DNA of 64,000 nucleotides, from the NCBI RefSeq assembly GCF_029846175.1, contig NZ_JARWAC010000009.1:372001-436000 (forward strand), in the 5' to 3' direction. The notes under the pieces were generated by a model. It had not been told where the DNA came from. It saw only the letters and a list, made by a program, of their open reading frames with translations, and searched no databases. The position numbers and the translations under genes were made by a program. The stretch comes from Sphaerisporangium sp. TRM90804 (GTDB taxonomy: Bacteria; Actinomycetota; Actinomycetes; Streptosporangiales; Streptosporangiaceae). The first letter of the stretch is position 1. The number at the start of each line of letters is the position of its first letter. Positions 48,844 through 64,000 of this stretch are shown here, piece by piece.

Positions 48844-49826
48844 GGTGCCTCCGCGAGGTCGGTGAGCACGCGGACCAGCAGGTTGCGGGCCAGCGGCACC
48901 TTGTAGGCGTTCCCCGGCAGGGGACGGGCCCCCGCCAGCTCCAGCTCGGCGGCTCGGGTGAACTCCGCCTCGGTCGCCTCGGCCCCGCGCAGGGCGGCCT
49001 CGGCCGTCTCCGCGCGCCACGGCACGTGCGCGACCGCGCCGAGCGCGATGCGGCAGTCGCGGACGACGCCGCCCGCGACCTCCAGGGCCGCGGCCACCGA
49101 CACCACCGCGAAGGAGAACGACGCCCGGTCGCGCACCTTGCGGTAGCGGGACCGGGCGGCGAGCGGCAGCGGCGGCAGCTCCACCGCCGTGATCAGGTCG
49201 CCGGGGCCGAGCACGGTGTCCCGCTGCGGCTGGTCGCCGGGGAGGCGGTGCAGCCCGGGCATCGGCACGGCGCGCGGGCCGCCGGGGCCCTCGACGTGGA
49301 CCGTGGCGCCCAGCGCGGCCAGGGCCACCGCCATGTCGGACGGCTGGGTGGCGACGCAGCTCTCGGAGTGGCCGATGATCGCCAGGTTGCGGTGGTCGCC
49401 TTCGCGCGCCGGGCAGCCGGAGCCGGGCTGCCGCTTGTTGCAGGGCTTGGTGACGTCCTGGAAGTAGGAGCAGCGGGTGCGCTGGAGGAGGTTGCCCCCG
49501 ACCGTGGCCATGTTGCGGATCTGGCCGGAGGCGCCGGCCAGCACGGCCTGCGACAGCACCGGGTAGCGGCGCCGCACCAGGGGGTGGGCGGCCAGCTCGC
49601 CGTTGCGCACCCCGCCGCCGACGAGCAGGCCGCCGCCGGCGGTCTCCTCGATGGTGGCCGGGGCGATGCGGGTGACGTCCACGAGCGTGTGCGGCGTGGC
49701 GACGCCGAGGCGCATCAGGTCGACGAGGTTGGTGCCGCCGCCGAGGAACACCGCGCCGTCGCCCGCGCCGACGGCCTCCACCGCCGCACGGGTGCTGGCG
49801 GCGCGCTGGTAGCCGAACGGCCTCAC
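48840..49826 (-). CDS. FAD subunit of aldehyde/xanthine-type oxidoreductase (PaoB-like)
   Basis: 328 residues from GTG 49826. FAD-binding motifs FLGGGTNLVDLM and IRNMATVGGNLLQRTRC are present. The segment RCSYFQDVTKPCNKRQPGSGCPA supplies the extra cysteines that bind a [4Fe-4S] cluster in E. coli PaoB (YagS), so this subunit probably has that additional cluster. It passes electrons from the molybdenum site through Fe-S centres to FAD. Overlaps both neighbours by four bases. Confidence 0.9.
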   Translation of the reverse strand: MRPFGYQRAASTRAAVEAVGAGDGAVFLGGGTNLVDLMRLGVATPHTLVDVTRIAPATIEETAGGGLLVGGGVRNGELAAHPLVRRRYPVLSQAVLAGASGQIRNMATVGGNLLQRTRCSYFQDVTKPCNKRQPGSGCPAREGDHRNLAIIGHSESCVATQPSDMAVALAALGATVHVEGPGGPRAVPMPGLHRLPGDQPQRDTVLGPGDLITAVELPPLPLAARSRYRKVRDRASFSFAVVSVAAALEVAGGVVRDCRIALGAVAHVPWRAETAEAALRGAEATEAEFTRAAELELAGARPLPGNAYKVPLARNLLVRVLTDLAEAP

Positions 49827-50374
49827 GGCGCCACCCGCCTGATCGCCTCGACGATGTTGGGGTAGGCGCCGCAGCGGCACAGGTTGCCGCTCATCCGCTC
49901 GCGGATCTCCTCCTCGTCCAGCACGACCGGGCCGTCGCCTTCGCTGACCGCGCTGGGCCACCCGTCCTGCGCCTCGGCGAGCATGCCGACCGCCGAGCAG
50001 AGCTGGCCGGGCGTGCAGTAGCCGCACTGGAAGGCGTCGTACTCGATGAACGCCTCCTGCAGCGGGTGCGGGCTGTCGCCGCCCGCCAGGCCCTCGATGG
50101 TCGTGATCTCCCGGTCGTCGACGGTGACCGTGAGCGTCAGGCACGACTTGACGCGCCGGCCGTCGACCAGGACCGTGCACGCCCCGCACTGGCCGTGGTC
50201 GCAGCCCTTCTTGGAGCCGGTCAGGTCGAGGCGCTCCCGCAGCGTGTCCAGGAGCGTCTCCCGGGTGTCCACGGTGATGGGATGGACGTCCTTGTTGACC
50301 GACAGCCGCAGGTCGCTGGTGATCGGGGCCGGGGCGGCGGCGTCACCTCGGATCGTGTTCGCTTCGCCGTTCAC
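49823..50374 (-). CDS. [2Fe-2S] subunit of aldehyde/xanthine-type oxidoreductase (PaoA-like)
   Basis: 183 residues from GTG 50374, chosen because AAGGAAG precedes it; ATG 50425 is also in frame. Two 2Fe-2S clusters are encoded: plant-ferredoxin type (GCDHGQCGACTV...C) and the alpha-helical type (CGYCTPGQ ... GNLCRCGAYPNI). E. coli PaoA carries a Tat signal; none is seen here, so the enzyme is probably cytoplasmic. First gene of the operon, 82 bp downstream of the tryptophan dioxygenase stop. Confidence 0.9.
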   Translation of the reverse strand: MNGEANTIRGDAAAPAPITSDLRLSVNKDVHPITVDTRETLLDTLRERLDLTGSKKGCDHGQCGACTVLVDGRRVKSCLTLTVTVDDREITTIEGLAGGDSPHPLQEAFIEYDAFQCGYCTPGQLCSAVGMLAEAQDGWPSAVSEGDGPVVLDEEEIRERMSGNLCRCGAYPNIVEAIRRVAP

Positions 50375-50455
50375 CCGCGCTTCCTTACCCGGGCCCGGCC
50401 ATGCTTTATCCCACCGGAGGTTCATCTCTCGGCAGCGGACGCTCCAAGGCGCCGC

Positions 50456-51337
50456 TCAGACGACGGTGCGCGCCGACCACAGCTCCGGGAAGACGTCGCG
50501 GCTGAGGCTGCGCTGGAGCCATCCGACGCCGCCCGACCCGCCCGATCCCATCTTGGCGCCCATGGACCGGCGCACCGCCATCAGGTGGCGGTAGCGCCAG
50601 TCGGAGAACCGCTCCGACAGGTCGGTCAGGGTCTCGGCGAGCTCCCACAGCTCGTCGCCGGGCGCGCGCTCGCTGTAGATCGTCACCCATGCGGCCTCCA
50701 CGGCCGGGCTCGGGACGTACTCGGCCGTGAGGTCGCGCCCCTCCGGGACGGCGAACCCGCGTCTGGCCAGCACGTCGAGCACGCTGTCGTACAGGCTCGG
50801 CGCGCGCAGGGCGGCGAGCAGTTCGGCGTACACCGCGGGGCTGCGCCGGTGCGGGCGGGTGAGCGGCTCGGACTTGTTGCCCAGCAGGAACTCCAGGTGC
50901 CGGTACATGGCGGACTGGAAGCCGGAGGCCTCGCCGAGCGCCTCGCGGAAGGCGTTGAACCGCACCGGGGTGAGCCAGCTCAGCGCGGCCCAGGAGGCGT
51001 TCAGCGCCTCGAAGTAGCGGACGGTGCGCGCGAGCACCGCGGTGGCCTCGGCGATCTCGTCGTCGTCGAGCAGCCGCTGCGCGAGCCGCCACTCGGTGCG
51101 CACCAGCCCGAAGTACAGCTCCATGACCTGGGTGGTGACCAGGAACGGCAGTTCTTCCGGCACGTCGGTGATCGTGTGCTGGAGGCCGTGCAGGGTCTCG
51201 GCCTCCACGTAATCGTCGTACGGCGTGCCCGCCGCGAACTCCAGGGTCGGCGCGGCCTCGCCCGGCCCCTCGGAGGGCGCGCCGGGCGCGCCGACCGGCC
51301 TCTCCGTGATGGCCCCGTCTCTCGGCCTGCTCGTCAT
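50456..51337 (-). CDS. kynA: Tryptophan 2,3-dioxygenase
   Basis: 293 residues from ATG 51337 (GGGAGG upstream); GTG 51367 is in frame but lies within the promoter. Family features: YDDYVEAETLHGLQ near the N terminus, ELPFLVTTQVMELYFGLVRTEWR with the substrate-region residues, SGFQSAMYRHLEFLLGNKS, and the heme-ligand His region SDWRYRHLMAVRRSMGAKMGSGGSGGVGWL. It is a heme enzyme that opens the indole ring to make N-formylkynurenine. It is divergent from an Lrp regulator and close to a formamidase-like hydrolase. Confidence 0.94.
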   Translation of the reverse strand: MTSRPRDGAITERPVGAPGAPSEGPGEAAPTLEFAAGTPYDDYVEAETLHGLQHTITDVPEELPFLVTTQVMELYFGLVRTEWRLAQRLLDDDEIAEATAVLARTVRYFEALNASWAALSWLTPVRFNAFREALGEASGFQSAMYRHLEFLLGNKSEPLTRPHRRSPAVYAELLAALRAPSLYDSVLDVLARRGFAVPEGRDLTAEYVPSPAVEAAWVTIYSERAPGDELWELAETLTDLSERFSDWRYRHLMAVRRSMGAKMGSGGSGGVGWLQRSLSRDVFPELWSARTVV

Positions 51338-51368
51338 CACGCCTCCCTCGCTTCCCTCTATGGTCACG

Positions 51369-51389
51369 TCTATAGGATTTCAGGGAAAT
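51369..51389. promoter_or_regulatory. kynA promoter -10 and overlapping palindrome
   Basis: Minus strand TATAGA (51369-51374) is a good -10 for kynA. Next to it ATTTC-AGG-GAAAT (51377-51389) is a perfect 13-base inverted repeat within the promoter spacer, a plausible operator for the divergent Lrp-type regulator. Confidence 0.45.
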
Positions 51390-51468
51390 GGTGAGTCTGA
51401 GGTCGTTCGTCCCTTTCACCTGCGGGTTGAAAGGTCTCGGAGGGCTTTCGGGTTGTGAGTGACGGGGC

Positions 51469-51918
51469 GTGACCGTGGACACGATGGACTGGGCTCTGCT
51501 GGCTGAACTCCAGGCGGACGCGCGACTGTCGTTCAGCGAGCTGTCCCGGCGGGTCCACCTGTCGGCGCCGGCCGTGGCCGAGCGGGTCAGGAGACTGGAG
51601 CAGACCGGGGTGATCACCGGGTACCACGCGCGGGTCGACCTGTCGCGCGCCGGGCACACGGTGAGCGCGCTGGTGCGCATGGCGTGTTACGGCCCCCGCT
51701 GCCTGCTCCGCGACGAGGCGGCGCTGGCCTGGCCCGAGATCGTCGAGGTGCACCGCGTGACCGGGGACACCTGCTGCCTGCTCCGGGTCGCCACCACCTC
51801 GATGGGCGCCTTCGAGGAGCTGATCGACCGCCTGGCCCCCTACGGCCAGCCGTCGAGCATGATGATGCTCTCCAGCCCCCTCCCCTGGCGCCCCCTGACC
51901 CGCCCCGCCGGCGGCTGA
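51469..51918 (+). CDS. Lrp/AsnC family regulator
   Basis: 149 residues from GTG 51469. N-terminal AsnC helix-turn-helix (DWALLAELQADARLSFSELSRRVHLSAPAVAERVRRLEQTGVITGYHARV) and C-terminal RAM domain (HTVSALVRM, VEVHRVTGDTCCLLRVATTSM). It senses an amino acid or derivative; being divergent from kynA, tryptophan or kynurenine pathway compounds are the likely ligand and kynA the likely target. Confidence 0.92.
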   Translation: MTVDTMDWALLAELQADARLSFSELSRRVHLSAPAVAERVRRLEQTGVITGYHARVDLSRAGHTVSALVRMACYGPRCLLRDEAALAWPEIVEVHRVTGDTCCLLRVATTSMGAFEELIDRLAPYGQPSSMMMLSSPLPWRPLTRPAGG

Positions 51919-51956
51919 GCCCTGCCGGGCGGGGACGCCGGGCGGGAGGCGCGGGG

Positions 51957-53237
51957 TCAGCGCGTGAGGCGGGCGGCCAGCTCGGCGGCGGTGGCGTGCC
52001 AGATCGCGGACGCCGGGTCGACGACCGCGAAGTGGTCGCCGGGCAGCTCCAGGTAGACGGCCTCCTCGCCCGCGGCCCGGGCGTACCGCCGGTTGACGTC
52101 GACCAGGTCGGGGTCGTCCGAGGCGCCCTGCACGACGAGCTGCGGGACGCCCAGGGGGAGCCGCTCCAGGGGACTTGAGGCGGCGTACACCTCGGGGATC
52201 TCGTCCGCGCCGCCGCCCAGCGCGCCCGCGACCGCCCCCGCGCTCACGTGACGCCGGTCCGCTGCCACGAGGTCGAGCACCCCGGCCAGCGACACCGCGA
52301 GCGTCACGACCGGCGACCCCTCCCCGGAACCCGCAGAAGGCGCGGCCGGAGACGGCGCGGCTCGGCGGGCGTCCGCCGCGGCGCCCGGGCGATCCCCTCC
52401 CCCGCGGGCGCGGTCGGCCGCGGCGCGCAGGGCGAGCTGGCCGCCCGCCGAGTGGCCCGCCACCGCCACCCGGGCCAGGTCGAGGGGCGTGCCGGCCGAG
52501 GCGAGCGCCTCGACGCCGGCGGCCACGTCGGCGGTGGTGGCGGCCCAGCCGTGCAGGTCGGGGCGCCGATACTCCAGGTTCCACGACGCGAAGCCGCGGT
52601 CGGCCAGGTCGATGGCGAGGGCGTCCATCAGGTCGGCCGCCCAGACCGACCGCCAGTAGCCGCCGTGCACGAGCACCACGACCGGCGGTGCCACGCTCCC
52701 CACGGCGGGCGTCCGGGGCTCGACCGGGCCCGGACGCGGATCAGGCGTGGTCGGGGATGGATCCGACGCGGGCGTCTTCGGAGCAGGCGCGGGCAGGCGC
52801 GCGCCGGCGGCCGGCAGGCGCAGGTCGGCCCACTGGTCGGGGTGGGGGCCGTAGGGGATCCGGCGCGCGGGGCGGCGCAGGCGGTGCACGGCGTGGCGGA
52901 CGGCCCATCCCAGGCCCGCGACCCCGCGTCCCCGCACGTGCGCCGCGCCCCCGGCGACCGTTCGCGGCCCGGTGCGGTCCAGGTCGAGCCACACCGTGCG
53001 GGGCGCGTGGCCGGAGGCGACGTCCATGAGCCGCCTCGCCTCGGGGTCGGGCCCCGGCAGCGCGACCAGGGCGCACCCCTCCCCGGCCCGCTCCAGCTCG
53101 GCGGCGAGCGCGGCCACGTCCGCCACGGCGGCGAACCGGCCCTGGACGCCGAGCGCGGCCCACTCGGCCGCCGCCGTCTCCTCCAGCAGCCCGGCGTCGG
53201 CCACCACCCCGGGCCCCGCGACGACCAGCACCTCCAC
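51957..53237 (-). CDS. Kynurenine-formamidase-like hydrolase fused to degenerate dehydroquinase-like domain
   Basis: 426 residues from GTG 53237 (GGGGAGG seven bases upstream). Residues about 180-426 are an alpha/beta hydrolase: oxyanion motif HGGYW (191-195), nucleophile Ser263 in GHSAGG, acid near 374 (GASDDPDLVD) and His402 (PGDHFAVVD). HGGxW is the known signature of kynurenine formamidase, which suits the nearby kynA. Residues 1-120 resemble a type II dehydroquinase fold (VLVVAGPG at the start, VAGLGWAVRHAVHRL at the end) without its catalytic Tyr and His. Pro/Ala-rich linkers occupy 145-180 and 280-307. Converts N-formylkynurenine to kynurenine if the assignment holds. Confidence 0.75.
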   Translation of the reverse strand: MEVLVVAGPGVVADAGLLEETAAAEWAALGVQGRFAAVADVAALAAELERAGEGCALVALPGPDPEARRLMDVASGHAPRTVWLDLDRTGPRTVAGGAAHVRGRGVAGLGWAVRHAVHRLRRPARRIPYGPHPDQWADLRLPAAGARLPAPAPKTPASDPSPTTPDPRPGPVEPRTPAVGSVAPPVVVLVHGGYWRSVWAADLMDALAIDLADRGFASWNLEYRRPDLHGWAATTADVAAGVEALASAGTPLDLARVAVAGHSAGGQLALRAAADRARGGGDRPGAAADARRAAPSPAAPSAGSGEGSPVVTLAVSLAGVLDLVAADRRHVSAGAVAGALGGGADEIPEVYAASSPLERLPLGVPQLVVQGASDDPDLVDVNRRYARAAGEEAVYLELPGDHFAVVDPASAIWHATAAELAARLTR

Positions 53238-53518: not shown

Positions 53519-54349
53519 TCAGCCGCAGCCCTCGAACTGGGGGACGGTGAAGCTGAGGGCCAGGCCGGACTTGGCGAACCACTTCTGCAGCAGCTTCTTG
53601 GCGGTCCCGTCCTGGTACATCTCGGTGATCGCCTTGTTGACCGCCTCGCAGCCGTCCAGGTCGCCGATGCGGATGCCCACGCCGTACCGCTCGTCGCTGA
53701 AGGGGGCGTTGACGATGCGGGTGCTGGAGGTGGCGAAGCCGGCCAGGATGAGGTCGTCGGTCGAGACGGCGTCCACCTCGCCCGCCAGCAGCTGCGAGAC
53801 GCACTGGCTGTACGACGGGGAGCTCACCAGGCTGACCGCCACCTTGCGCTCCTCCTTCACCCGGCGCCAGGAGTTCGACCCGGTCACCTGGCACAGCTTG
53901 CGCCCGCTCAGGTCGCGCACGCCGGCGACGGCGCCGTCGTCCGCGCGCACGAGCGTGTCCTGGTGGGCCACGTAGTAGGGCCCGCCGAACGACACCTTGG
54001 TCTTGCGCTCGGCGGTGATCGAGTAGGTGGCGAAGATCAGGTCGACCGTGCCCCGGGCGAGCATCTTCTCGCGCGCCGAGGACGGCGCGTCGACGAAGCG
54101 CGCCGTCTTGCCCAGCTTGCGGGCGACATAGGTGGCGACGTCGACGTCGAAGCCGGTGTACTTGCCGTCCTTCTTCACCCCGAGCCCGGGCTGGTCGGGT
54201 TTGACCCCGATGACCAGGGACTCCTTGTCGAGCAGCGAGGTCCCGGCGGCGCACCCCGCCGCGAGCGGGAGCGCGGCGAGCAGCGCCGCCGCCGGCAGGA
54301 TCCGCGCGAGCGCGCGGATCCCGCGGCCGTTGCCAGTGAGCGTGAGCAT
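53519..54349 (-). CDS. glnH: GlnH-like amino-acid-binding lipoprotein
   Basis: 276 residues. Lipobox LAAGC near residue 32 after a hydrophobic signal segment, so the protein is tethered to the outer face of the membrane. The rest is a periplasmic-binding-protein type II fold of the glutamate/glutamine class (SLVIGVKPDQPGLG, TGFDVDVATYVARKLG, DLIFATYSITAERK, FGGPYYVAHQD, CQVTGSNSW). In mycobacteria GlnH binds aspartate and glutamate and signals through GlnX to PknG rather than feeding a transporter; no ABC permease or ATPase is adjacent here either, supporting the same role. Confidence 0.85.
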   Translation of the reverse strand: MLTLTGNGRGIRALARILPAAALLAALPLAAGCAAGTSLLDKESLVIGVKPDQPGLGVKKDGKYTGFDVDVATYVARKLGKTARFVDAPSSAREKMLARGTVDLIFATYSITAERKTKVSFGGPYYVAHQDTLVRADDGAVAGVRDLSGRKLCQVTGSNSWRRVKEERKVAVSLVSSPSYSQCVSQLLAGEVDAVSTDDLILAGFATSSTRIVNAPFSDERYGVGIRIGDLDGCEAVNKAITEMYQDGTAKKLLQKWFAKSGLALSFTVPQFEGCG

Positions 54350-54364
54350 CGCGACTCCTGCCTT

Positions 54365-55753
54365 TCAGCGGTACTCGGCGAGCCGGGGCCGGACACCGAC
54401 GAGGATCAGCAGGATGGCGGCGAGCGCCGCCGCCGGCGGCCCCACGTCCCATCCGGTGAGCGCGCCGTCGCCGTCGCGGACGGCGGAGTCGAACTCCCGG
54501 CGGTGCAGGGCGATCAGTTCGACCAGGGCCTCGTCGTACTCGCCGAACGCGGGGCCGAGCGCCAGGCGCACGGCGTCCCTGGGGCTGCCGCCGGCGGCGG
54601 CCTGGCGCATCCGCCGGTCGTTGTCCTGGAACTCCCCGTAGCGCCTCAGCACCTCCTCGAAGGCCGCCCGCTGCCCGGTCAGGGTGAGCCGGGAGGCCTC
54701 CGAGCCGAAGAACCCGAGGAAGTCGCCCTCGCCGGAGGACCGCGAGTCCAGCGCGGCCTGGTACTTGTCGAGGCTGCCGGCCGGGACGTACATGACCGCC
54801 TGCGACTTGTCGAGGTAGACCTGCTCGTAGGTGTCGGCACGCTGCGGGTCCAGCAGGTACCTGATCTCGTCGCCGTGCAGGGTGTTGCCGATGGCGCGGG
54901 CCCGCGACAGGGCGAGGACGGAGTCGAACCCGTCCTCCTTGGCGTGGGTCAGCACCTCGGTCTCCCGCTGGAGCACCAGCACCCCGCCGAGGGCGAGCAC
55001 GGCGGCCAGGACGGTCGCCGCGAGCAGCGAGAGGTTGATCGTCCGCCGGAAACCCCTGCTGAGGTAGATCTGCAGGGTCAGCAGGACGGCGAGCGCGAGC
55101 GCGCAGGCGACCCCGGTCCAGATGCCGCCCATCCGCATGGCCGACAGCTCGGCGATGGAGGCGCGCCGGACGATGGTGCCGCTGTCGAGGGTCAGGTTGT
55201 AGGCCTTGGGCAGCAGGTCCAGGCGCATGAGGTCGGTGGCCTGGCGGTAGACCGCCAGCGCCTGTGAGGAGGGCGGCCCGGCGGCGTGCCCGGCGCGCTC
55301 GTCCAGCACCAGGGCGCGGGAGGCGAGCCGCTCGTAGCGGCCGAGGCCGTCCAGCAGCGCGCGGACGGTGGCCTGCGCCGTGGCGTCGTCCCCGGCGAGG
55401 TCGGCGGCCTGGAGCACCGCGCGGTCGGCCTGCGACCTGCGCTGGTCGTAGAGGGCGAGCATGGCCTGGCGCCCCGGCCCGAGCCCGGTCTCCTGCCCGG
55501 CGAGCAGGACGGTGGCCACCTGGGCGTCCATGTCGCTGAGCGCGAAGTACAGGTCGGCGGTGGCCACCACCTGCGGGCCGGCGGTGTGGCCGATGACACG
55601 CAGGCCGTCCCTGGCGTGCGCGACGGCCATGGCGACCGCGCCGGCCAGCAGCAGGACGGCGGCCACGGCCAGCGCGGTGAGCAGCCGGATGCGTCCCGGC
55701 ACGGTGCGGGCCCTGCCGGCTCGGCGGGGCGGCGCGGGCCGCACTAACGTCAT
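54365..55753 (-). CDS. glnX: GlnX-like four-helix transmembrane sensor
   Basis: 462 residues with four membrane helices (about 24-48, 205-228, 237-260 and 438-457) and two extracytoplasmic helical domains between them, the first like a four-helix-bundle ligand sensor. Mycobacterial GlnX has the same number of helices and a similar length and links GlnH to PknG. No kinase or methyl-accepting domain is attached. It lies 15 bp upstream of glnH and directly after the FHA gene in the operon. Confidence 0.8.
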   Translation of the reverse strand: MTLVRPAPPRRAGRARTVPGRIRLLTALAVAAVLLLAGAVAMAVAHARDGLRVIGHTAGPQVVATADLYFALSDMDAQVATVLLAGQETGLGPGRQAMLALYDQRRSQADRAVLQAADLAGDDATAQATVRALLDGLGRYERLASRALVLDERAGHAAGPPSSQALAVYRQATDLMRLDLLPKAYNLTLDSGTIVRRASIAELSAMRMGGIWTGVACALALAVLLTLQIYLSRGFRRTINLSLLAATVLAAVLALGGVLVLQRETEVLTHAKEDGFDSVLALSRARAIGNTLHGDEIRYLLDPQRADTYEQVYLDKSQAVMYVPAGSLDKYQAALDSRSSGEGDFLGFFGSEASRLTLTGQRAAFEEVLRRYGEFQDNDRRMRQAAAGGSPRDAVRLALGPAFGEYDEALVELIALHRREFDSAVRDGDGALTGWDVGPPAAALAAILLILVGVRPRLAEYR

Positions 55754-55754
55754 C

Positions 55755-56633
55755 TCAGCCTCTCCGCAGGGTGATGACGGTCCACGCGCCCACGTTGACG
55801 CGGTCGCCGTCGCCGACCGGTACCGGCACGTTGACCTCCACGCTCTTTCCGTTCAGCAGGGTGCCGTTGGCCGAGCCGGGGTCGACCAGCCGCCAGCCGC
55901 CGTCGGGCTCGGCCAGCAGCACGGCGTGCAGGTGGGAGACGCCGGGATCCTCCGGGGGGCCCGACAGGTCGATCTCCGGCTCCAGCGAGCGCGTCCGGCT
56001 GCGCCGCCCGATGCGCATCTCGCGCCCGGCCAGCGGGATCCGCCGCTCGGGGCAGTAGGGCGGGAACGCCACCCGGGCCGCGTCGGGGCCGCCGAGGGCG
56101 ATCATCGCCTCGTAGTGGCCGCGGTCGGCCGCGACGACCGCCAGCCAGCCGCTCCCGGCGGGCCCGCCCCGCGACCCGGGATCGCCCGTCGTCTGAGGCC
56201 GCCCGGACTGCGGGCCGGCGCCCTCGTGCCATCCCTGGGAGTGCGGGGCGCCCTCGTGCCGTCCCTGCGTGGGCGCGGGGCCGGCCGGGTCGGGCCGGGG
56301 CTGCGACGAGCCCGGGCGGACGATCTGCGCGGGCCGCCACGCCTGCGCCGGCTGCGCCGGTTGGGCGGGCGCCCCGGGGTCCGCTGCCGGGCGCGAGGGC
56401 GGCGGGGCGAACGCCTGGGAGGAGCCGCCGAGCACGAAGTCGTAGCCGCAGCTCTCGCAGAAGCGGCCGCCGCGGGGCGCGCCGCAGTCGGGGCAGGGCC
56501 CCTCGCCCCGCGGCGCGCCGGAGGAGGCGGGCGGCGCGGGCGCCGCCTGGCCGGGGGCGCCGGTCATCAGCGCGCCGCAGACGTCGCAGTACTCCTCGTC
56601 GGCGGAGTCGTGCCCTGCCGGGCAGGTGGCCAT
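55755..56633 (-). CDS. FHA-domain protein with N-terminal zinc ribbons
   Basis: 292 residues. Two zinc-ribbon modules lead (Cys4/Cys16/Cys19 and Cys47/Cys50/Cys59/Cys62), then a Pro/Gln/Gly-rich linker to about residue 165, a strand-rich segment, and a C-terminal FHA domain (about 200-292) with MRIGRRSRTR, DPGVSHLHA and DPGSANGTLLNG, the residues that read phosphothreonine. In mycobacteria the FHA protein GarA is the PknG substrate; this protein is larger and lacks GarA's N-terminal ETTS motif, so it is a functional analogue at most. Its ATG follows the VWA stop by two bases. Confidence 0.85.
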   Translation of the reverse strand: MATCPAGHDSADEEYCDVCGALMTGAPGQAAPAPPASSGAPRGEGPCPDCGAPRGGRFCESCGYDFVLGGSSQAFAPPPSRPAADPGAPAQPAQPAQAWRPAQIVRPGSSQPRPDPAGPAPTQGRHEGAPHSQGWHEGAGPQSGRPQTTGDPGSRGGPAGSGWLAVVAADRGHYEAMIALGGPDAARVAFPPYCPERRIPLAGREMRIGRRSRTRSLEPEIDLSGPPEDPGVSHLHAVLLAEPDGGWRLVDPGSANGTLLNGKSVEVNVPVPVGDGDRVNVGAWTVITLRRG

Positions 56634-56635
56634 CC

Positions 56636-57925
56636 TCAGCCCTCCGGGTCCTTGCGCATGCGGACGGTGCGGACAGAACGGGTGTCCAGCGCGATCTCGT
56701 CGGCCTTGTCGACGCCCCGCCTCAGGCGTGCGGTGCCGGTCTCGGGGTCGATGTCCACGACCTTGTCCAGCAGCTTGGCGGTCTCGTCGTTGCCCGCGCG
56801 CTCGGCGATGCCGCGCGCCTTGCCGAGCCGGGCCGTGGCGGTCTCCAGGTCGCCGTCGTTGCGCGCCTGCAGGCCCTCCTGGATGAGGGACGCGAGCTCC
56901 TGCTGGCCGGTGTAGTGGGCGACCCGGGGGTTGATGCGGGTGGACAGCGCGGGGTCGTCGCTCCACTGGGCGAGCACGTTCCCGCTGGCCAGCACCTCCC
57001 CGGTGGCGGGGACGACCAGCTTGACCAGGCCGGCGCGCATCTCCTGGCCAACGCCGCCCGGGGGCACCTTCACGCTGACGTGGTACTCGCGCGACTCCCC
57101 GCCCCACGCGCCGGTCGGGTAGTCGCCGGTCTGCGCGTCGACCGGGGAGCGGCGCCCGGTCAGATCCTCCAGGGCCGGGGAGACCTGCTTGACGAAGTTC
57201 AGCGTCGCGGCCCGGGGCGTCCACACGCGCAGCGCGACGTCGGCGACGGTCTTGCCCATGGCCGCCTCGGTCATGGCGCGGAAGTCGTCCTCCAGCTCCT
57301 CGGGCCTGCGGACGTCCATCGCGCTGCCGAGCAGGGTGGAGCCGATCCTGCGCAGCTCGGCGACCACCCAGTCGGTGCCCACGCCCCGGGCGTCGCAGAC
57401 GAACTTGCCCGAGCAGTAGGCCAGGTTGGCGTCGAACTCCGGCGCGGGCTCGTGCTCGTTCTTGCCGTCGGTGAGCAGGATGGCGTGCCTGATCGCGCCG
57501 GGGTGCTCCATGAGGTGGGCGCTGAACAGGTCGGCGGCGCGGCGCAGCCACCGGCCCATCGCGGTGCCGCCGTCGGCGCGCAGGCGGGAGACGGCCTCCT
57601 TGGCCTCGTCCCTGCTGCGCGCGTCCGCCGGCGTCAGGCGGCCGTTGCCCGGGTAGATCACCTCGGCCTGGTGGTTGCCCGCGATGACGGCGAAGTACAC
57701 GCCGTCGCGCAGCGTGTCGACGGCGGCCTGCGCGGCCTTGCGCGCCTCGGCGATCTTGCCGTACGACATGGAGCCCGAGGTGTCGACGATGATCACCTCG
57801 GCGGCGTCGGTGGCCCGGGAGGTCCCGACCGGCCCGCTGGCCTCGACGGTGATGATGCCGTGGACCTCCTGGCTCCCCGCGGGCAGGTACTTGTTCTGGT
57901 CCACGCGCATGGTGAAGTCAGTCAC
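56636..57925 (-). CDS. von Willebrand factor A domain protein
   Basis: 429 residues from GTG 57925 (AAGGAGAG upstream). The VWA domain (about 40-210) has a complete metal site: DTSGSMS near 49, the Thr of DGGTAMGRW and the Asp of LLTDGKNEHE. The second half is a beta-rich region and a C-terminal helical tail. VWA proteins bind protein partners through the metal; here it sits between a phosphatase and an FHA protein, so it is probably an effector or scaffold of the phospho-signalling pathway. Overlaps the phosphatase gene by eight bases. Confidence 0.88.
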   Translation of the reverse strand: MTDFTMRVDQNKYLPAGSQEVHGIITVEASGPVGTSRATDAAEVIIVDTSGSMSYGKIAEARKAAQAAVDTLRDGVYFAVIAGNHQAEVIYPGNGRLTPADARSRDEAKEAVSRLRADGGTAMGRWLRRAADLFSAHLMEHPGAIRHAILLTDGKNEHEPAPEFDANLAYCSGKFVCDARGVGTDWVVAELRRIGSTLLGSAMDVRRPEELEDDFRAMTEAAMGKTVADVALRVWTPRAATLNFVKQVSPALEDLTGRRSPVDAQTGDYPTGAWGGESREYHVSVKVPPGGVGQEMRAGLVKLVVPATGEVLASGNVLAQWSDDPALSTRINPRVAHYTGQQELASLIQEGLQARNDGDLETATARLGKARGIAERAGNDETAKLLDKVVDIDPETGTARLRRGVDKADEIALDTRSVRTVRMRKDPEG

Positions 57926-58829
57926 TTCTCTCCTTCGGGAAGGCCACCGTGGTATCGGCCCGGTCCCCCTGGCCGAACGGGATGACCACGACGGTGATGT
58001 TGTCGTGTCCCCCCGCCTGGTTCGCCAGGCGCACGAGCCTGCGCGCCGTCGCGAGGGGGGCGTCCTGCGGGGCCGCGGCGGCGAGGTCCTCCGGCTCCGG
58101 GTAGTAGTTCCACAGGCCGTCGCTGCACAGCAGCACGATGCCGGGCCCGTCGGTGGTGAAGGTCGTGACGTGCGGGACGACCTCGCCGGCGTCGGCGCCC
58201 AGCCACGCGGTCAGCATGTGCGTGCCGGGCGTCGCGTCGTCGCGGGTCAGCAGGGCCGACTGCGCGCCGAGCCAGTACGCCCGGCTGTCCCCCACCCAGC
58301 CGACCGTGACCTGCCGGGCCGAGACGACGGCGGACACGTACGTGCAGGCGGGGGCGTCCTCGCCGGCGCGGGCGGCGGCGGCGACCGCCGCGGCGGCGAG
58401 CCGCACGCCCTCGCGGGTGGCCGCCTCCGCCCCCTCGCCCTCGGCGAGCCGCTTGGCGATCGCGGCGGCGGCCACGTCGGCCGCCGCCTGGGACGCCTCG
58501 TCCGGGCGCGGGGAGGTGGAGACCCCGTCGCAGACGACGCCCACCACCGTCCCGGGCCCCGCGGCGGTCAGGGCCATGGCGTCCTCGTTACGGCTGTGCC
58601 GGCGGCCGCGGTCGCTGGCGCCGGCCGAGCCGTCCAGCTCCACCTCGACGTGGTCGCGCCCGGTGGGCTGGAGCATGCCGCAGTTCTCGCAGTACCCGTC
58701 GGCGCCGACGCGCGCCGCCCCGCAGGCGGTGCACGGGGTGGGCCCGGGCGCTGCGAGGTCGTGGCCGCACTGCTCGCAGAACGCCTCGCCGGCCAGGACG
58801 CGGGTGCCGCACACGGGGCAGGCGCTCAC
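57918..58829 (-). CDS. PP2C-type protein phosphatase with zinc ribbons
   Basis: 303 residues from GTG 58829, in a GTGA overlap with the kinase stop. Two zinc ribbons open the protein (CPVC/CEQC at 4-21 and CTAC/CENC at 33-50). The PP2C metal-binding motifs follow: HSRNEDAMAL, VCDGVST, VGWVGDSRAYW, LCSDGLWNY and GGHDNITVVV. It removes phosphate from Ser/Thr, and its position makes it the natural counter-enzyme to the PknG-like kinase. Confidence 0.92.
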   Translation of the reverse strand: MSACPVCGTRVLAGEAFCEQCGHDLAAPGPTPCTACGAARVGADGYCENCGMLQPTGRDHVEVELDGSAGASDRGRRHSRNEDAMALTAAGPGTVVGVVCDGVSTSPRPDEASQAAADVAAAAIAKRLAEGEGAEAATREGVRLAAAAVAAAARAGEDAPACTYVSAVVSARQVTVGWVGDSRAYWLGAQSALLTRDDATPGTHMLTAWLGADAGEVVPHVTTFTTDGPGIVLLCSDGLWNYYPEPEDLAAAAPQDAPLATARRLVRLANQAGGHDNITVVVIPFGQGDRADTTVAFPKERSD

Positions 58830-61435
58830 CACAGCGTCCTCGGGCGGACGGCGTTGGCGCGGCCGATGAGGGCGTGCCGGTCCTCGGTCGTGCCGGCCGA
58901 CCTGGCCAGGGCCCGGTAGACCCGCTCCAGCTCGCCGCGCACGCCGCGCTCGCTGAGCGGGGTGCCGAGCAGCGTGCCGCCGTTCCCCTGCGCCGCCTGG
59001 CCGGTGACGAACCTGGCCAGCGCGCTCTCCAGCACCTCCGAGGCCAGGCCGTCGCGGTCGCGGGAGTCCAGCCTCAGGCCGCGCAGCCGCTCGCCGGCGG
59101 CGATCAGCTCCGGCTCGGCGGGCGCCTGCCCGCGCACGGTGACCGCTACGGCGGCGACCTGCGCGGCGGTGCGGTGGATGGAGGTGGGCGGCACCTCGTC
59201 CAGGGCGCGGACGGCGCCGGCCCGCTCGCCCTGGGCCAGCAGGATGCGCGCCAGGCCGAAGCAGGCGCCGGCGTAGGAGCGGTCGGTCTGCCAGATGGCC
59301 GCGTAGTGCCGCGCGGCCTCGGGACCGGCACCGGCCGCCTCCAGCGCGAACGCCAGCGCGAGCCGGGGCGCGGCCTCGCCGGGGAACCAGGAGTAGAGCC
59401 CGTCGAAGAAGCGCACGGCCATGCCGGCGTCCCCGGAGGCCAGTTCGGCGACGCCGCGGTACCACCACAGCCGCCAGTCGCCCGGCAGGTCCCTGGCCGC
59501 GGCGGCGTACAGCTCGTCGGGGACGGGGCGGCCCAGCTCGCTCAGCACGCGGATGCGGGCCAGGAGCGTCTCGGGCGTGGACGGCGCCGACTCCAGCACC
59601 GCGATCAGCTCGTCGGGGCTGCCGGAGGTGAGCCCGGCCAGGAAGCCGGCGGCCGGGTCGAGCGGGTCGACCAGCGGTACCGGCAGCGCCGAGGCGGCGT
59701 CCAGGCGCTCCAGGGGCCCGAACACCTGGCCGCTGGTGAGGGGTGCCAGCTCGGTGCCCACCGCCGCCCTCTCAGGCCCGAACACCCCCGACTGCGCGGG
59801 GTGAGGCGCGGCCTCCTCCTGGGCCCTGGTCTCCCGCAGGACGCCGACGAGCTGCTCGGACATCTCCGAGGCGCTCTGGAAGCGCCGCGTGGGGTCGGCG
59901 TCGGTCGCGCGCTGCAGGAACCGGTGGAAGGACTCCAACGCCGGCCCGGGGTCGGGCAGCGGGGCGGCGGCGCCGCCCGCGGACGGGCTGAAGGGGAAGG
60001 CGAGCACCGCGAGCGTGCGCCCGACGGTGTACAGGTCGGAGGCGATCGAGGTGCCGTGGGTGGCGATCTCGGGCGCCTGGTAGCCGATGGTGCCGTAGAT
60101 CGCGCTGTCGTTGTCGTCGAGCCGGCGCACCGCGCCCAGGTCGATCAGCTTGAGCTGCTCCTCCACCTGGATCACGTTGGCGGGCTTGAGGTCGCAGTAG
60201 AGCATGCCGCGGTCGTGCAGGTAGCCGAAGGCGCTGAGGATCTCCAGCCCGTACGCCATCACCTGGGACGGCGGGAGCGCCTGGCGGTTGTCGCTCTCGC
60301 GGAGGCGGTGGCGCACCAGGTCCTGCAGGGACTGGCCGCCGACGTACTCCATGACGATGTAGCCGACCAGCGTCCCGGTGACCGGGTCGGGGTGGTTCAC
60401 GAAGTTGAAGATCTTGACGATGTTGGGGTGGTCCATCGCCGTGAGGAACCGGCGCTCGGCCTCGGCGGCGGCGAGCGCCTCGGTGTCGCCGGTGTCCAGC
60501 AGGCCCTTCATGACCACCCAGCGGCCGTCGAGGTTGCGGTCGGCGGCCAGGTAGATCCAGCCCAGGCCGCCGTGCGCGAGGCAGCCCTTGACCTCGTACT
60601 GCCGCGCGACCAGGTCGCCCGCGCCGAGCTTGGGGGTGAAGGAGAACCGGTGGGCGCAGTGCGGGCAGAAGCCCTCGGCGCGGCCGGGGTTGCCGTCGCG
60701 ACGGCGGCCGACCGGCTTGCCGCAGTCGGGGTTGCCGCAGAAGCGCCGCTCCTCGGGCACCACGGGGTCGCGCAGGACGACCGCCGAGGGGTCGCGGTAG
60801 GGCACCGGGGGGACCTCGACCAGGCCCATGCCGAGCATGCCCCGGCGCGAGCGGCTGCTGGTGCGCCGCGACCCGGTCATCTGGCTCGGGGTGGAGCCGG
60901 TGGAGCCGGTGGGGGCGGTGCCCGGGACGCCGATGGACGGCCGGGTCATCCCGCCGGGCGGCGGCGCCCACCCGGACGCCTGCGGGGGCGGGGCCGCCGA
61001 GCCGGAGGGCCACGCCGTCCCGGGGCGGCCGGCGGACTGCGGCGGCGCGGCGCCGGGGGGCGGCGGGGAGCCGCCCGCGGCCGAGGGCCAGGCGGTGACC
61101 GGCCGTCCGGAGGCGCCCGTGCCCACGCGGTTGCCGGGCGCGCCGGGCGGTACCGCGCCGGGGTCGCCGGGCCGCACGGCGCCGGGCGGCGCGATCGGCG
61201 GCGCGGCCGGGAACGCGTGGGCGGGCGCGGCGCCGCCCGAGGCGCCCGGCCCGTACGGGGACGGCGCCCCGTGCGGGGACGGCGGACCGTGCGGAGACGG
61301 CGGACCGGACGGCGGCGGCGCGCCGGGCCCACCGGACGGCACCGGGGAGGGCCGGGACACCGGCGCCATCCCGCAGGCGTCGCAGTATCCGTCCACGACG
61401 GTCCCGGTGCACCCGGGCTGGTCGCATCTGGTCAT
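58826..61435 (-). CDS. pknG: PknG-type serine/threonine protein kinase
   Basis: 869 residues (mycobacterial PknG about 750). Residues 1-22 hold an extra zinc ribbon (Cys4, 9, 18, 21), then a Pro/Gly-rich linker to about 190. The PknG rubredoxin-like site follows (Cys233, 238, 257, 260; CGKPVGRR), and the kinase domain begins QYEVKGCLAHGGLGWIYLA with Lys310 (VVMKGL), catalytic YCDLKPAN with Asp415 and the PknG-specific LIDLGAV. TPR-like repeats fill the C-terminal 270 residues. Soluble kinase known to control glutamate metabolism and redox balance. ATGA overlap with the coiled-coil gene and GTGA overlap with the phosphatase. Confidence 0.95.
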   Translation of the reverse strand: MTRCDQPGCTGTVVDGYCDACGMAPVSRPSPVPSGGPGAPPPSGPPSPHGPPSPHGAPSPYGPGASGGAAPAHAFPAAPPIAPPGAVRPGDPGAVPPGAPGNRVGTGASGRPVTAWPSAAGGSPPPPGAAPPQSAGRPGTAWPSGSAAPPPQASGWAPPPGGMTRPSIGVPGTAPTGSTGSTPSQMTGSRRTSSRSRRGMLGMGLVEVPPVPYRDPSAVVLRDPVVPEERRFCGNPDCGKPVGRRRDGNPGRAEGFCPHCAHRFSFTPKLGAGDLVARQYEVKGCLAHGGLGWIYLAADRNLDGRWVVMKGLLDTGDTEALAAAEAERRFLTAMDHPNIVKIFNFVNHPDPVTGTLVGYIVMEYVGGQSLQDLVRHRLRESDNRQALPPSQVMAYGLEILSAFGYLHDRGMLYCDLKPANVIQVEEQLKLIDLGAVRRLDDNDSAIYGTIGYQAPEIATHGTSIASDLYTVGRTLAVLAFPFSPSAGGAAAPLPDPGPALESFHRFLQRATDADPTRRFQSASEMSEQLVGVLRETRAQEEAAPHPAQSGVFGPERAAVGTELAPLTSGQVFGPLERLDAASALPVPLVDPLDPAAGFLAGLTSGSPDELIAVLESAPSTPETLLARIRVLSELGRPVPDELYAAAARDLPGDWRLWWYRGVAELASGDAGMAVRFFDGLYSWFPGEAAPRLALAFALEAAGAGPEAARHYAAIWQTDRSYAGACFGLARILLAQGERAGAVRALDEVPPTSIHRTAAQVAAVAVTVRGQAPAEPELIAAGERLRGLRLDSRDRDGLASEVLESALARFVTGQAAQGNGGTLLGTPLSERGVRGELERVYRALARSAGTTEDRHALIGRANAVRPRTLW

Positions 61436-62598
61436 CCGGCCGCTCCGATCCGAGTGATGGCCCGCTGGTACTCGGCGACGGCGACGGTCGCCCGCCGCAG
61501 GTCGCACGGCGCGGTCCACAGCAGGTCGCGGGCCGTGCCGTAGAGGCCGGCGAGCGCGACGTCCTCCGCGTGGCCCAGGCGGACGGCCTTGGCCTGGTAG
61601 GCCGACAGCCGCCCGCGAAGCTCGTCGCGCCGGTCGATGAGGCCGCCGATCGACCCGGTGACGCCGTCGGCGCGCGACAGCGCGTCCAGCACGGCGCGTT
61701 CGAGCTCCGCCAGGCGCTCGGCCAGCTCCAGCCAGCGGCCCTCCGCCGAGCCGAGCGCGGCGAGCCGGTCGCGCAGCGCGGCGGCCTGGTCGGGCAGGCG
61801 GGGCAGCGACGGCGAGGCGATCTTGGCCAGGACGACGTCCCGGACGCGTCGCGCCTCCTCCTCGGCGGCGGCGACCTCGGCGACGCGCTCGCCGAGCAGG
61901 CGGGCGCGCTCGGCGTACTCCTCACGCAACCGGGCGGCCCGCTCAAGCGCGCCGAGGCGGGCGGCCAGGGCCGAGGCGGCGGCGTCCAGTTCCTCCCCCA
62001 GCCCGGGGGCGCCGAGCGGGTCGGAGGTGGCGGCGGCGCGCAGCCGGTCGAGCCGTTCGCCGAGGCGGTCGAGCTCGGCGTCGGCGGCGCCGAGGTCGTC
62101 GGCCAGGACGCGGGCCGCGCGGCGGGCGGCGTCGGCCTCCTCCAGCCGGGGCAGCAGGGTGCCCCAGGCGGCGTCCACGGCGGCGACGGTCTCGGCGACC
62201 TCGCGGTAGGCCCGGTCCATGCGGGCCATGACGGTGTCCAGGGTGATCCACTCGCCGGGCGTGCGCAGCAGGGAGCGTTTCTCCACGGGCACGTCCCCGG
62301 GCTCCAGCTCCACCGAGGAGCCGGCGAGCAGGTCGCTCAGCGCGGCCAGGTCGGGCTTGGACGCGGCGCGCAGCTCCAGGGCGCGGTCGAGCACCCGGCG
62401 GTAGGCGTCGAACAGCCACCACAGGGTGACGGAGGTGGCCTCGGCGCGCGCCCAGCGTCGCCCGGTCTCGCCCGCGGGCGTCATCCCGGCCAGCAGGCGG
62501 CGGCTCGGGTGGTCGTCGAGGTCGAGCAGGTCGCCGGCGATGCGGTCGCGTTCGGCAACGCGCCGGCTCAGGGCGTGGTCGATCCCCTCCAGGCTCAT
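61432..62598 (-). CDS. Coiled-coil protein of the PknG operon
   Basis: 388 residues from ATG 62598; the frame is open upstream but that part is AT-richer and not protein-like. Nearly all helical with long heptad stretches (ADAELDRLGERLDRLRAA, AEVAAAEEEARRVRDVV, LELAERLAELERAVLDALSRADG). No known domain. It starts the operon and overlaps pknG by ATGA, suggesting a scaffold or partner of the kinase. Confidence 0.75.
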   Translation of the reverse strand: MSLEGIDHALSRRVAERDRIAGDLLDLDDHPSRRLLAGMTPAGETGRRWARAEATSVTLWWLFDAYRRVLDRALELRAASKPDLAALSDLLAGSSVELEPGDVPVEKRSLLRTPGEWITLDTVMARMDRAYREVAETVAAVDAAWGTLLPRLEEADAARRAARVLADDLGAADAELDRLGERLDRLRAAATSDPLGAPGLGEELDAAASALAARLGALERAARLREEYAERARLLGERVAEVAAAEEEARRVRDVVLAKIASPSLPRLPDQAAALRDRLAALGSAEGRWLELAERLAELERAVLDALSRADGVTGSIGGLIDRRDELRGRLSAYQAKAVRLGHAEDVALAGLYGTARDLLWTAPCDLRRATVAVAEYQRAITRIGAAG

Positions 62599-63105: not shown

Positions 63106-64000
63106 TCAGAAGGGGAAGCGGGTGAGGTCGAAGGCGTTCACCCCGCGCACGCCGTCCCACACCACGAAGTTGCCGTACTCGCGCATGGTCTCGACCGGGA
63201 CGCCGCCGAGCCCGGCGACGTCGTCCAGGAGCCGCTCGAACCGGAAGATCGCCGTGGGCCCCAGCTTGTTCACCACGCTGAGCATCAGCGGCACGAGGTT
63301 GAAGCGGAACAGCGCCGAGCAGGGCAGGACACGGTGGTTGTCGCGCAGCCGGGAGAACACCTCGGCGTGCTCGGGGTGGGCCGCGGAGTAGGCGTCACAG
63401 GCCTCCTGGGAGAAGTGGCCCCGGTAGCGGACCGTGTGCGCGTCGCAGTCGAGCCGGTCGTCGCGGAGCGTGAACTCCCCGCTGTTGTAGGTGGCGGCGC
63501 CGAGCAGGTCGCCCCAGGGCCGGACGAAGACCTGCTCGAAGTGGACGGCCTTGCGCTCCAGCCGGGCGGCCAGCGGCGCGCTGGGCACGAACGAGCCGCG
63601 CGGGCCGCGCATGTCGTAGATCCACGGGGGCGGGGTGAGGGTGTCGGCCTTGGTGAGGACGACGGTGAGCCTGCCCAGCACCTGGGCCCGCGCCCGTGGC
63701 CCTGCCTGCGCGAGCAGCCGGTCCAGGCACGCGGCGTCGTAGGCGACCGAGCGGCTGTCGGCGTGGATGGCCCAGATGACGACGTCGCACTCGGCGAGCT
63801 TCTCCAGGTAAACGGCCGAGTGCTCCAGGTCCGCGGCGGCGGATTCCCCTATTCCGGGCATATCCCAAAATGTCACTAAATGGTCGGAGTTACCGGGCAC
63901 AGTGATGGCCCGGGGTTCACGCGTGACCGGTTTCCCGTCCCCCACGGGCAGCCGCGTGCCGAACAGAACGTTGAGCAACGAGGACTTTCCCACCCCCGTC
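63106..64000 (-). CDS. P-loop GTPase, 5' end outside window
   Basis: The frame runs off the right end of the window; 298 codons are visible. It begins in the P-loop (TGVGKSS, bases 63999 downward), then the G3 motif DMPGIGES and the G4 motif TKAD, as in Era/dynamin-like and HSR1-related 50S ribosome-binding GTPases. The C-terminal 150 residues are unfamiliar, with strands and helices and no membrane segment. Its role is unknown; it could belong to the same transcription unit as the PknG genes further downstream. Confidence 0.8.
   Translation of the reverse strand, partial: TGVGKSSLLNVLFGTRLPVGDGKPVTREPRAITVPGNSDHLVTFWDMPGIGESAAADLEHSAVYLEKLAECDVVIWAIHADSRSVAYDAACLDRLLAQAGPRARAQVLGRLTVVLTKADTLTPPPWIYDMRGPRGSFVPSAPLAARLERKAVHFEQVFVRPWGDLLGAATYNSGEFTLRDDRLDCDAHTVRYRGHFSQEACDAYSAAHPEHAEVFSRLRDNHRVLPCSALFRFNLVPLMLSVVNKLGPTAIFRFERLLDDVAGLGGVPVETMREYGNFVVWDGVRGVNAFDLTRFPF

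Follow-up and report, generated by a model that had tools for sequence, protein, structure and literature searches.

The soil actinomycete Sphaerisporangium sp. TRM90804 carries an operon of seven head-to-tail genes in which the protein kinase PknG and its presumed sensor proteins GlnX and GlnH are encoded together with a coiled-coil protein, a PP2C phosphatase, a von Willebrand factor type A (VWA) protein and an FHA protein. The operon lies in the 64,000-nucleotide stretch of DNA analyzed here (the window; positions 372,001 to 436,000 of contig NZ_JARWAC010000009.1, designated C77). What seems to be new is that this operon is widely conserved and couples a kinase system that senses amino acids to a zinc-ribbon/scaffold pair similar to an archaeal one; a set of ribbon-bearing kinase, PP2C and vWA proteins is already known from another system, according to the accessible text of PMC7159879. 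We put close to even chances on the reading that the operon encodes an aspartate/glutamate-responsive phosphorylation circuit that is built around an ArnB-like scaffold and joined to GlnH-GlnX-PknG.

The operon occupies positions 53519-62598 of the window on the minus strand (C77:425519-434598). The genes are referred to by single letters (C, coiled coil; K, PknG; P, PP2C; V, VWA; F, FHA; X, GlnX; H, GlnH), and the spacings in the order of transcription are -4 (C-K), -4 (K-P), -8 (P-V), +2 (V-F), +1 (F-X) and +15 (X-H) nucleotides, which bears out the tight seven-gene packing described in an earlier note on this DNA. The features are as follows.

61432-62598, minus strand: C, all-helical coiled-coil protein of 388 residues, first gene of the operon
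58826-61435, minus strand: K, PknG with zinc ribbon, Pro-rich linker, rubredoxin, Hanks kinase and TPR regions
61370-61426, minus strand: N-terminal zinc ribbon of K, residues 4-22, CDQPGCTGTVVDGYCDACG
57918-58829, minus strand: P, PP2C phosphatase with an N-terminal double zinc ribbon (Pfam PP2C_2, Zn_Ribbon_1 and DZR)
56636-57925, minus strand: V, VWA protein of the 4FX5 / ArnB-fold family, with the metal ion-dependent adhesion site (MIDAS) motif DTSGS at residues 48-52
56660-56710, minus strand: conserved Ser/Thr tail at the C-terminus of V, residues 406-422, DKADEIALDTRSVRTVR
55755-56633, minus strand: F, zinc ribbon plus FHA domain in an ArnA-like order, distinct from GarA
54365-55753, minus strand: X, GlnX-family transmembrane transducer
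53519-54349, minus strand: H, GlnH-type amino-acid-binding protein with a lipobox-like LAAGC

Domain scores agree with the gene identities and the GlnH-GlnX-PknG sensor link that had been proposed from the letters alone. K combines rubredoxin, kinase and TPR domains (PknG_rubred 89.5 bits, Pkinase 100.3 bits, PknG_TPR 275.6 bits) and matches the PknG structure 2PZI over residues 200-867 (E 8.5e-157). P has a PP2C_2 domain with phosphatase motifs (48.1 bits) behind its zinc ribbons, F an FHA domain with its motifs (45.1 bits), and H an SBP_bac_3 domain (108.2 bits). X scored 291.8 bits against NF058618 ('GlnX family signal transduction membrane protein'; cut-off 250) and 51.5 bits against the narrower equivalog NF041460, below its cut-off of 780. 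The earlier note had left the coiled coil and the VWA protein without a role, and for C this still stands: the Pfam search gave no family above its cut-off, profile matches resemble generic coiled coils, and the AlphaFold model, nearly all helix (mean predicted local distance difference test (pLDDT) score 93.7), found EzrA 4UXV as a weak top fold match (E 0.26, template modeling (TM) score 0.39). An orthologue of C lies close to pknG in 115 of the 167 loci surveyed below. No sigma-70-type promoter was found for the operon and the sole terminator-like site was at chance level, a result that is weakly informative for an actinomycete.

For V, by contrast, there is a lead. It belongs to the family of 4FX5, the structure of Catenulispora acidiphila caci_2163 (profile E 8.9e-177), and its model (mean pLDDT 90.6) was matched to 4FX5 by Foldseek with a TM score of 0.93. 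The next folds were ArnB in the ArnAB complex 8S05 (E 4.9e-22, TM 0.67/0.74) and then ArnE 5A8J (E 8.2e-19), followed by inter-alpha-inhibitor and, lower, Sec23/24; at the profile level, the chain of 8S05 named 'Conserved protein' was matched over the VWA domain only (E 3.3e-07). V has the split beta-sandwich, the C-terminal helical domain and an intact MIDAS (DTSGS, GGTA, TDG) of an ArnB-type protein, and its Pfam domains are VWA_3 (51.6 bits) and VWA_3_C (68.4 bits). The C-terminus typically reads DEMxL[DE]TRSTKTVRVxK; across 26 sequences, S417, T420 and R422 never vary and T415 hardly does. Of 115 V open reading frames (ORFs), 91 have the pattern L[DEN]TxSx[KRTVL][TS], and 10 more have it with the first Thr replaced. 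A stricter pattern, [DE]TxS[TV]x[ST][VIAK], which ribbon-type GarA sites such as ETTSTISI match as well, occurred once in ~374,000 residues of background (residues 1-300 of V plus the six remaining families). In locus L040, V and F are fused as a single ORF; they likewise form one ORF in L163, which looks frameshifted, and V bears a C-terminal ribbon of its own in three loci without F (L031, L033 and L045). These three belong, with L017 and L050, to a divergent second operon type made up of K and V (with X in four of the five) without P, F and H; it has its own zinc-ribbon PknG, and in the three named loci V ends in the zinc ribbon rather than the Ser/Thr tail.

A survey of pknG neighborhoods, which the earlier note had proposed, was carried out on 167 loci with iterated profiles of all seven proteins. 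The loci comprise 86 regions of our choice spread over families, the best 80 of 597 scan loci (Actinomycetota, by record titles) and the window; the sample is non-random, and its counts are not frequencies in nature. All seven families were found together, on one strand and near pknG, in 91 of the 167 loci, and the seven-gene set is therefore neither a chance nor a local oddity. The order X-H-C-K-P-V-F was observed in 49 loci, plus three near contig ends, of Streptomyces, Kitasatospora, Actinoplanes, Cellulomonas, Kineosporia, Terrabacter, Nocardia and others, while C-K-P-V-F-X-H was observed in 32 loci and the window, namely in Actinomadura and in genomes sharing the family code of the window. 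Given these two dominant orders, the X-H pair has seemingly been relocated as a block. X and H adjoin pknG in most of the 167 loci, and X-H-K without the other four genes was found in 29. Partial sets also occur: Lentzea has X-H-K-P, and both Actinomadura pelletieri and Spirillospora albida have C-K-V-X-H. C-K-P-V-F is carried by L060 (a genome of another class) and L091 (an Acidimicrobiaceae metagenome-assembled genome). Two Kitasatospora loci (L134 and L140) have an extra PP2C gene that is co-directional with X and lies ~1.5-1.8 kb upstream of it.

The C-terminal domain of V gives a similar picture in genomes. VWA_3_C (PF18571) has one copy in the genome of the window and was found in 97 of 394 genomes of the class. 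PknG is present in 94 of these 97; of the three others, G369 shows a weaker match to PknG_TPR (E 1.2e-12) at a distance of 2.7 kb from its VWA_3_C. Among the 111 VWA places listed, 78 are at most 6 kb from PknG and three are far away on the same contig; for the remaining 30, PknG is on another contig or the distance was not compared. In several genomes of family code f90 (e.g. G427, G591 and G469), second VWA_3_C genes lie millions of bases from any listed PknG.

Zinc ribbons are a further shared feature. The N-termini of K and F carry ribbons of the C-x2-4-C...C-x2-C type that are similar to those of P. Upstream of the PP2C domain the ribbon pattern was found in 116 of 121 orthologous ORFs of P, and upstream of the FHA domain, which follows a long linker, in 105 of 111 orthologous ORFs of F; both counts were read from stop-to-stop ORFs and may include patterns upstream of the true start. 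The strict PknG ribbon pattern is present in 105 of 115 loci with V versus 6 of 43 V-less loci, a count that leaves aside nine more that lie close to contig ends. Ten V-bearing loci miss the pattern: in seven of them the ribbon is there but its last Cys is replaced, and the others are L056, which is cut, L170, which seems frameshifted, and L095. When P, V and F were considered jointly, the PknG ribbon was found in 90 of 99 versus 3 of 34 loci with the strict pattern and in 97 of 99 versus 4 of 34 with a lenient one. After correction for kinship, the P+V+F contrast leaves five independent pairs, of which one to three agree and none oppose; for V, with the lenient pattern, there are nine independent pairs; 178 of 200 pairings gave five in agreement, the other 22 gave four, and again none opposed. 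With so few independent pairs, a strict dependence of the PknG ribbon on P, V and F was dropped to a trend. The PknG N-terminus differs between the seven-gene and the X-H-K operon type. Genome G719 has four PknG loci (L080-L083: one X-H-K, one complete seven-gene, two PknG alone), and ribbons occur only in the copy adjoining C-P-V-F.

By calling the operon 'extended', the earlier note took the mycobacterial three-gene form as the starting point, and here the polarity is probably reversed. In a tree of the kinase and TPR regions (158 rows; nine loci that lack the anchor motif were dropped), most X-H-K rows fall in two places. The first clade consists of rows of family code f4 (Mycobacteriaceae, as far as can be judged), and its sister group is made up of the complete seven-gene copies of three loci (L083, L089 and Nocardia colli L119), a union with a support of 100. 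The second comprises 22 rows, whose named members are Pseudonocardiaceae. The label 'none of P, V, F' changes seven times on the whole tree, which includes additional single cases such as L015. A single X-H-K clade was rejected by the approximately unbiased (AU) test (p 0.0018), which used 55 of the 158 rows chosen by us, a quick tree under LG+G4 and a midpoint root, with groups that follow operon type but were set up once a first tree was known. From the two clades and the AU rejection it follows that the three-gene paradigm is most likely a product of repeated reduction. The tree, together with C-K-P-V-F in L060 and L091, therefore favors an ancestral seven-gene operon that was reduced at least twice. 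The root that we infer comes from rows all within Actinomycetota, with no outgroup from beyond the phylum; on it, the direction of change from seven genes to three is supported, the seven-gene operon was probably ancestral in Actinomycetota, and the scaffold genes were probably lost beside the main mycobacterial PknG copy. This suggests that the mycobacterial three-gene version is a stripped-down remnant. It is also the rarer form in the sample (29 X-H-K versus 91 seven-gene loci). The statement that mycobacteria have only pknG-glnX-glnH agrees with the literature and with most f4 loci, but two f4 genomes (L083 and L089) have a complete seven-gene copy among several PknG genes.

As to the input, H has a solute-binding fold and matches Mycobacterium tuberculosis GlnH 6H1U (E 3.1e-30). 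The alignment to 6H1U shows that it keeps Thr162, Ser164, Arg169 and Asp250 of the GlnH pocket, the residue roles of which are described in the accessible part of PMC6069109. An acidic amino acid is the likely ligand of H.

The output side can be modeled on the Arn system of Sulfolobus. The accessible texts of PMC12852372, PMC6509490 and PMC7472852 describe ArnB as a VWA protein with a split beta-sandwich and a C-terminal helical domain, and ArnA as a zinc finger plus FHA protein. ArnA binds ArnB loosely via the zinc finger and, once the kinase ArnC has phosphorylated a Thr in the C-terminal domain of ArnB (e.g. in IETTRR), tightly via the FHA domain. PP2A reverses this phosphorylation, the nutrient state exerts control, and ArnC has a TPR-like stretch. 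On this pattern, H would bind acidic amino acids outside the cell and X would pass the state of H across the membrane to the TPR domain of PknG. PknG and P would then set the phosphorylation of V, most likely on the tail L[DE]TRSTKTVR. F may dock on V in the manner of ArnA on ArnB, weakly via the ribbon of F and, when the tail has a phosphothreonine, firmly via its FHA domain, and the ribbons of K and P may recruit kinase and phosphatase to the V scaffold. C could be a helical partner or a membrane tether, and GarA, encoded elsewhere, would remain a likely further substrate of PknG. The lineages with X-H-K (the mycobacteria-type main copy and most sampled Pseudonocardiaceae) would have lost the scaffold module. 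The gene anatomy, its conservation, the fold of V, the FHA, MIDAS and phosphatase motifs and the co-occurrence of the genes in the sample were observed, whereas the ligand, the tail phosphorylation, the ribbon docking, the FHA binding and the physiological output of this circuit are what we infer.

Several observations weigh against such a circuit. V and ArnB share only 17-18% sequence identity, and the likeness of F to ArnA is one of domain order, and homology between its ribbon and the ArnA finger is hypothetical. The tail pattern was not found in 14 of the 115 V ORFs (five of these are divergent paralogues of the K-V type, L121 is cut and L163 looks frameshifted), the tail is kept in loci without F (L026, L097 and L146, the PknG of L026 being identical to that of L146), and in the model it is partly helical (helix 407-416). 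In the H pocket Trp232 is replaced by Tyr and Lys161 by Ala, and the position of Arg147 is ambiguous (Lys in the HMMER alignment, Arg in an ungapped reading). The association between the PknG ribbon and V is not significant after kinship correction (median p 0.0625). Moreover, six V-less loci (L014, L015, L037, L130, L157 and L160) keep the PknG ribbon and most sampled genomes without PknG keep the GarA ribbon (counts below), which indicates that the ribbons have additional uses. Finally, phosphorylation, binding and joint transcription are predictions here.

A bolder version of the circuit is also conceivable, though we would not bet on it: the operon would be a bacterial ArnAB with its own membrane sensor, the ribbons of kinase, phosphatase, FHA reader and perhaps GarA would form a shared docking tag for the VWA scaffold, and the LDTRSTKTVR tail would mimic the [ED]TTST-type site of GarA as a built-in PknG substrate. 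PknG-GlnX-GlnH would then be a twice-derived remnant that lacks scaffold, reader, eraser and tag.

The closest competitor to the scaffold circuit starts from GarA. The earlier note regarded the operon as a complete pathway in which writer, eraser and reader of phosphorylation are encoded with the sensor. PknG, PP2C and FHA proteins are indeed present, but F cannot stand in for GarA: the candidate F = GarA was rejected, as F scored 18.5 bits against the OdhI model (cut-off 200) and a true GarA/OdhI orthologue was found on the same contig 74 kb from the operon (C77:351122-351514; L090). The known output of the pathway is therefore encoded outside the operon, as in mycobacteria. This GarA scored 189.1 bits over positions 1-129 of 130 of the OdhI model, just under an equivalog cut-off that only 44 of the 394 class genomes exceed, and has an N-terminal zinc ribbon (YCTQCG...FCSRCG) and an ETTS-type motif, DTTSTIS. 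Like the ribbons of K, P and F and the conserved tail of V, it had been overlooked in the earlier note; it lies outside the window. The pathway may accordingly run as in mycobacteria: PknG would phosphorylate GarA and P dephosphorylate it, F, V and C would localize or tune the kinase, and the V tail would be no PknG site. We hold this to be less likely than not; in its favor are the ETTS-type GarA of the same genome, the phosphorylation of Saccharopolyspora GarA at ETTS (accessible portion of PMC12321487), the presence of X and H with pknG in most loci and the partly helical V tail. What it leaves unexplained is a conserved Ser/Thr tail on an ArnB-fold protein beside an FHA protein. In addition, GarA (E <= 1e-35) was found in 342 of the 394 class genomes and PknG_TPR (E <= 1e-20) in 140, and GarA is therefore not dependent on PknG.

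That GarA persists without PknG fits better with a second alternative, in which GlnH-GlnX-PknG of seven-gene species would act via F on outputs other than GarA, GarA would be served by PknB-type kinases, and the mycobacterial GarA link would be a later rewiring. The GarA proteins compared were read from the genome place of the window GarA (L090) and loci L171-L230. Their ribbon is present in 23 of 25 genomes of the 'extended' class, a class that includes two genomes with X-H-K-P only (G493 and G469), one truncated at the edge of a contig (G426) and five assigned by VWA_3_C alone (G720, G592, G750, G736 and G651). It is also present in 22 of 23 genomes without PknG, and in none of 12 X-H-K genomes, two of which (G096 and G377) were classed by family and missing VWA_3_C and read from a second, not the best, GarA paralogue, and one of which (G607) also has a weak VWA_3_C elsewhere. 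Within the 'extended' class, the ribbon is missing only from the pair of f4 genomes that possess a seven-gene copy. Thus, the ribbon is absent in the sampled f4 and f113 genomes, yet elsewhere it is independent of PknG, and the idea that it is owed to PknG or V is unsupported. The split in GarA (outside the X-H-K class, 45 of the 48 genomes sampled have the ribbon), the site readings (ETTSVFR in the eight X-H-K-class GarA proteins with a pattern match; [ED][TS]TSTIS, e.g. ETTSTISI, in many ribbon-bearing ones) and the unlike PknG N-termini of the two operon types would all suit such a rewiring. On the other hand, the ETTS-type core is found in both GarA types, and the sampled X-H-K GarA proteins come from two family codes only (f4 and f113), so that the change in GarA may be a single event. 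Overall, we find this alternative improbable.

A kinase, a PP2C and a VWA protein are also found together in the TerY-P triad, a set shared by the operon, which differs in its additional FHA, GlnX and GlnH genes. That the operon is a conflict or stress-defense cassette of the TerY-P-like or GTPase-associated kinase/PP2C/VWA kind can nearly be dismissed: these three genes are adjacent here, a dynamin/MMR_HSR1-type GTPase is encoded 0.5 kb upstream of C and a ribbon-kinase/PP2C/vWA set occurs in actinobacterial GTPase systems (accessible text of PMC7159879, in which the word PknG does not occur), but V matches the PADLOC model of TerY over 39 residues only (aa 36-74; 16.1 bits, E 0.0015) and so falls outside that family, the kinase has the complete PknG architecture, rubredoxin and TPR included, and the sensor is encoded by GlnX and GlnH genes. 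Matches of the kinase to the PD-T4-6 and MADS models were taken as generic kinase similarity. The GTPase ORF (63109-63993; MMR_HSR1/Dynamin_N) is on the same strand and reaches nearly to the end of the window. Downstream of the operon, positions 48843-52706 encode a tryptophan 2,3-dioxygenase, an alpha/beta hydrolase of BD-FAE type (possibly a kynurenine formamidase) and Fer2 and FAD-binding subunits of molybdenum-hydroxylase type.

No prior description of C, P, V or F with pknG was found in the openly searchable literature; subscription papers and preprints lie outside it, so one may exist there, and a STRING figure in PMC6069109 possibly depicts the gene neighbors. Three papers treat pknG, glnX and glnH (PMC6069109, PMC8546545 and PMC9769921); their accessible parts do not contain 'von Willebrand', and 'phosphatase' is likewise absent from the first two. 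The three-gene cluster of Corynebacterium glutamicum is covered in PMC2784874, and a Pseudomonas kinase-vWA fusion in PMC1262709, where PknG appears in the references only (both as far as accessible). The locus bears on the control of PknG by GlnX and on the role of PknG in bacteria other than mycobacteria and corynebacteria; the available text of PMC9769921 states that the GlnH-GlnX and GlnX-PknG interactions were not demonstrated. Should seven genes be the ancestral state, the parts still missing from the pathway may be encoded here, in soil actinomycetes that any ordinary laboratory can handle. In Saccharopolyspora erythraea, GarA engineering led to more erythromycin (PMC12321487, in part). 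The operon would also connect research on PknG with that on ArnAB, which is unlinked in the texts searched: the three PknG papers lack the term 'von Willebrand', as noted, and Hoffmann et al. 2019 (PMC6509490), who compared 4FX5 with vWA2/ArnE (3.75 Å over 264 Cα atoms), do not use the word PknG.

Among known systems, pknG-glnX-glnH with GarA/OdhI of Mycobacterium and Corynebacterium shares with the operon the PknG kinase and TPR domains, the GlnX family, a GlnH-type binding protein, the rubredoxin of PknG (outside Corynebacterium) and a GarA encoded elsewhere; it differs in that C, P, V and F lie between or beside these genes here and that PknG has an N-terminal zinc ribbon and GarA a ribbon. 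The protein 4FX5 caci_2163, deposited as 'von Willebrand factor type A', represents the family of V over its full length, including the STKTVR tail. The actinobacterial GAP1-N2 GTPase-centric systems (PMC7159879) likewise have a ribbon-bearing active kinase next to PP2C and standalone vWA genes, but in GTPase/GAP1-N2 neighborhoods, with PknG, GlnX and GlnH not mentioned in the accessible text. Another parallel is the archaellum regulatory network of Sulfolobus, ArnA-ArnB-ArnC-PP2A. The two have in common a tripartite VWA scaffold of the ArnB fold, a neighboring FHA protein with a zinc finger or ribbon, a Ser/Thr kinase with TPR or TPR-like repeats, a phosphatase and a nutrient input; the counterparts are V, whose fold was tested, F, whose domain order was tested and which adjoins V, the TPR kinase K, and P. 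By contrast, the operon is bacterial, has PP2C in place of PP2A, carries ribbons on kinase and phosphatase as well, encodes a membrane sensor, GlnX/GlnH, of its own, and has a phosphorylation step that is predicted, whereas that of ArnB is described.

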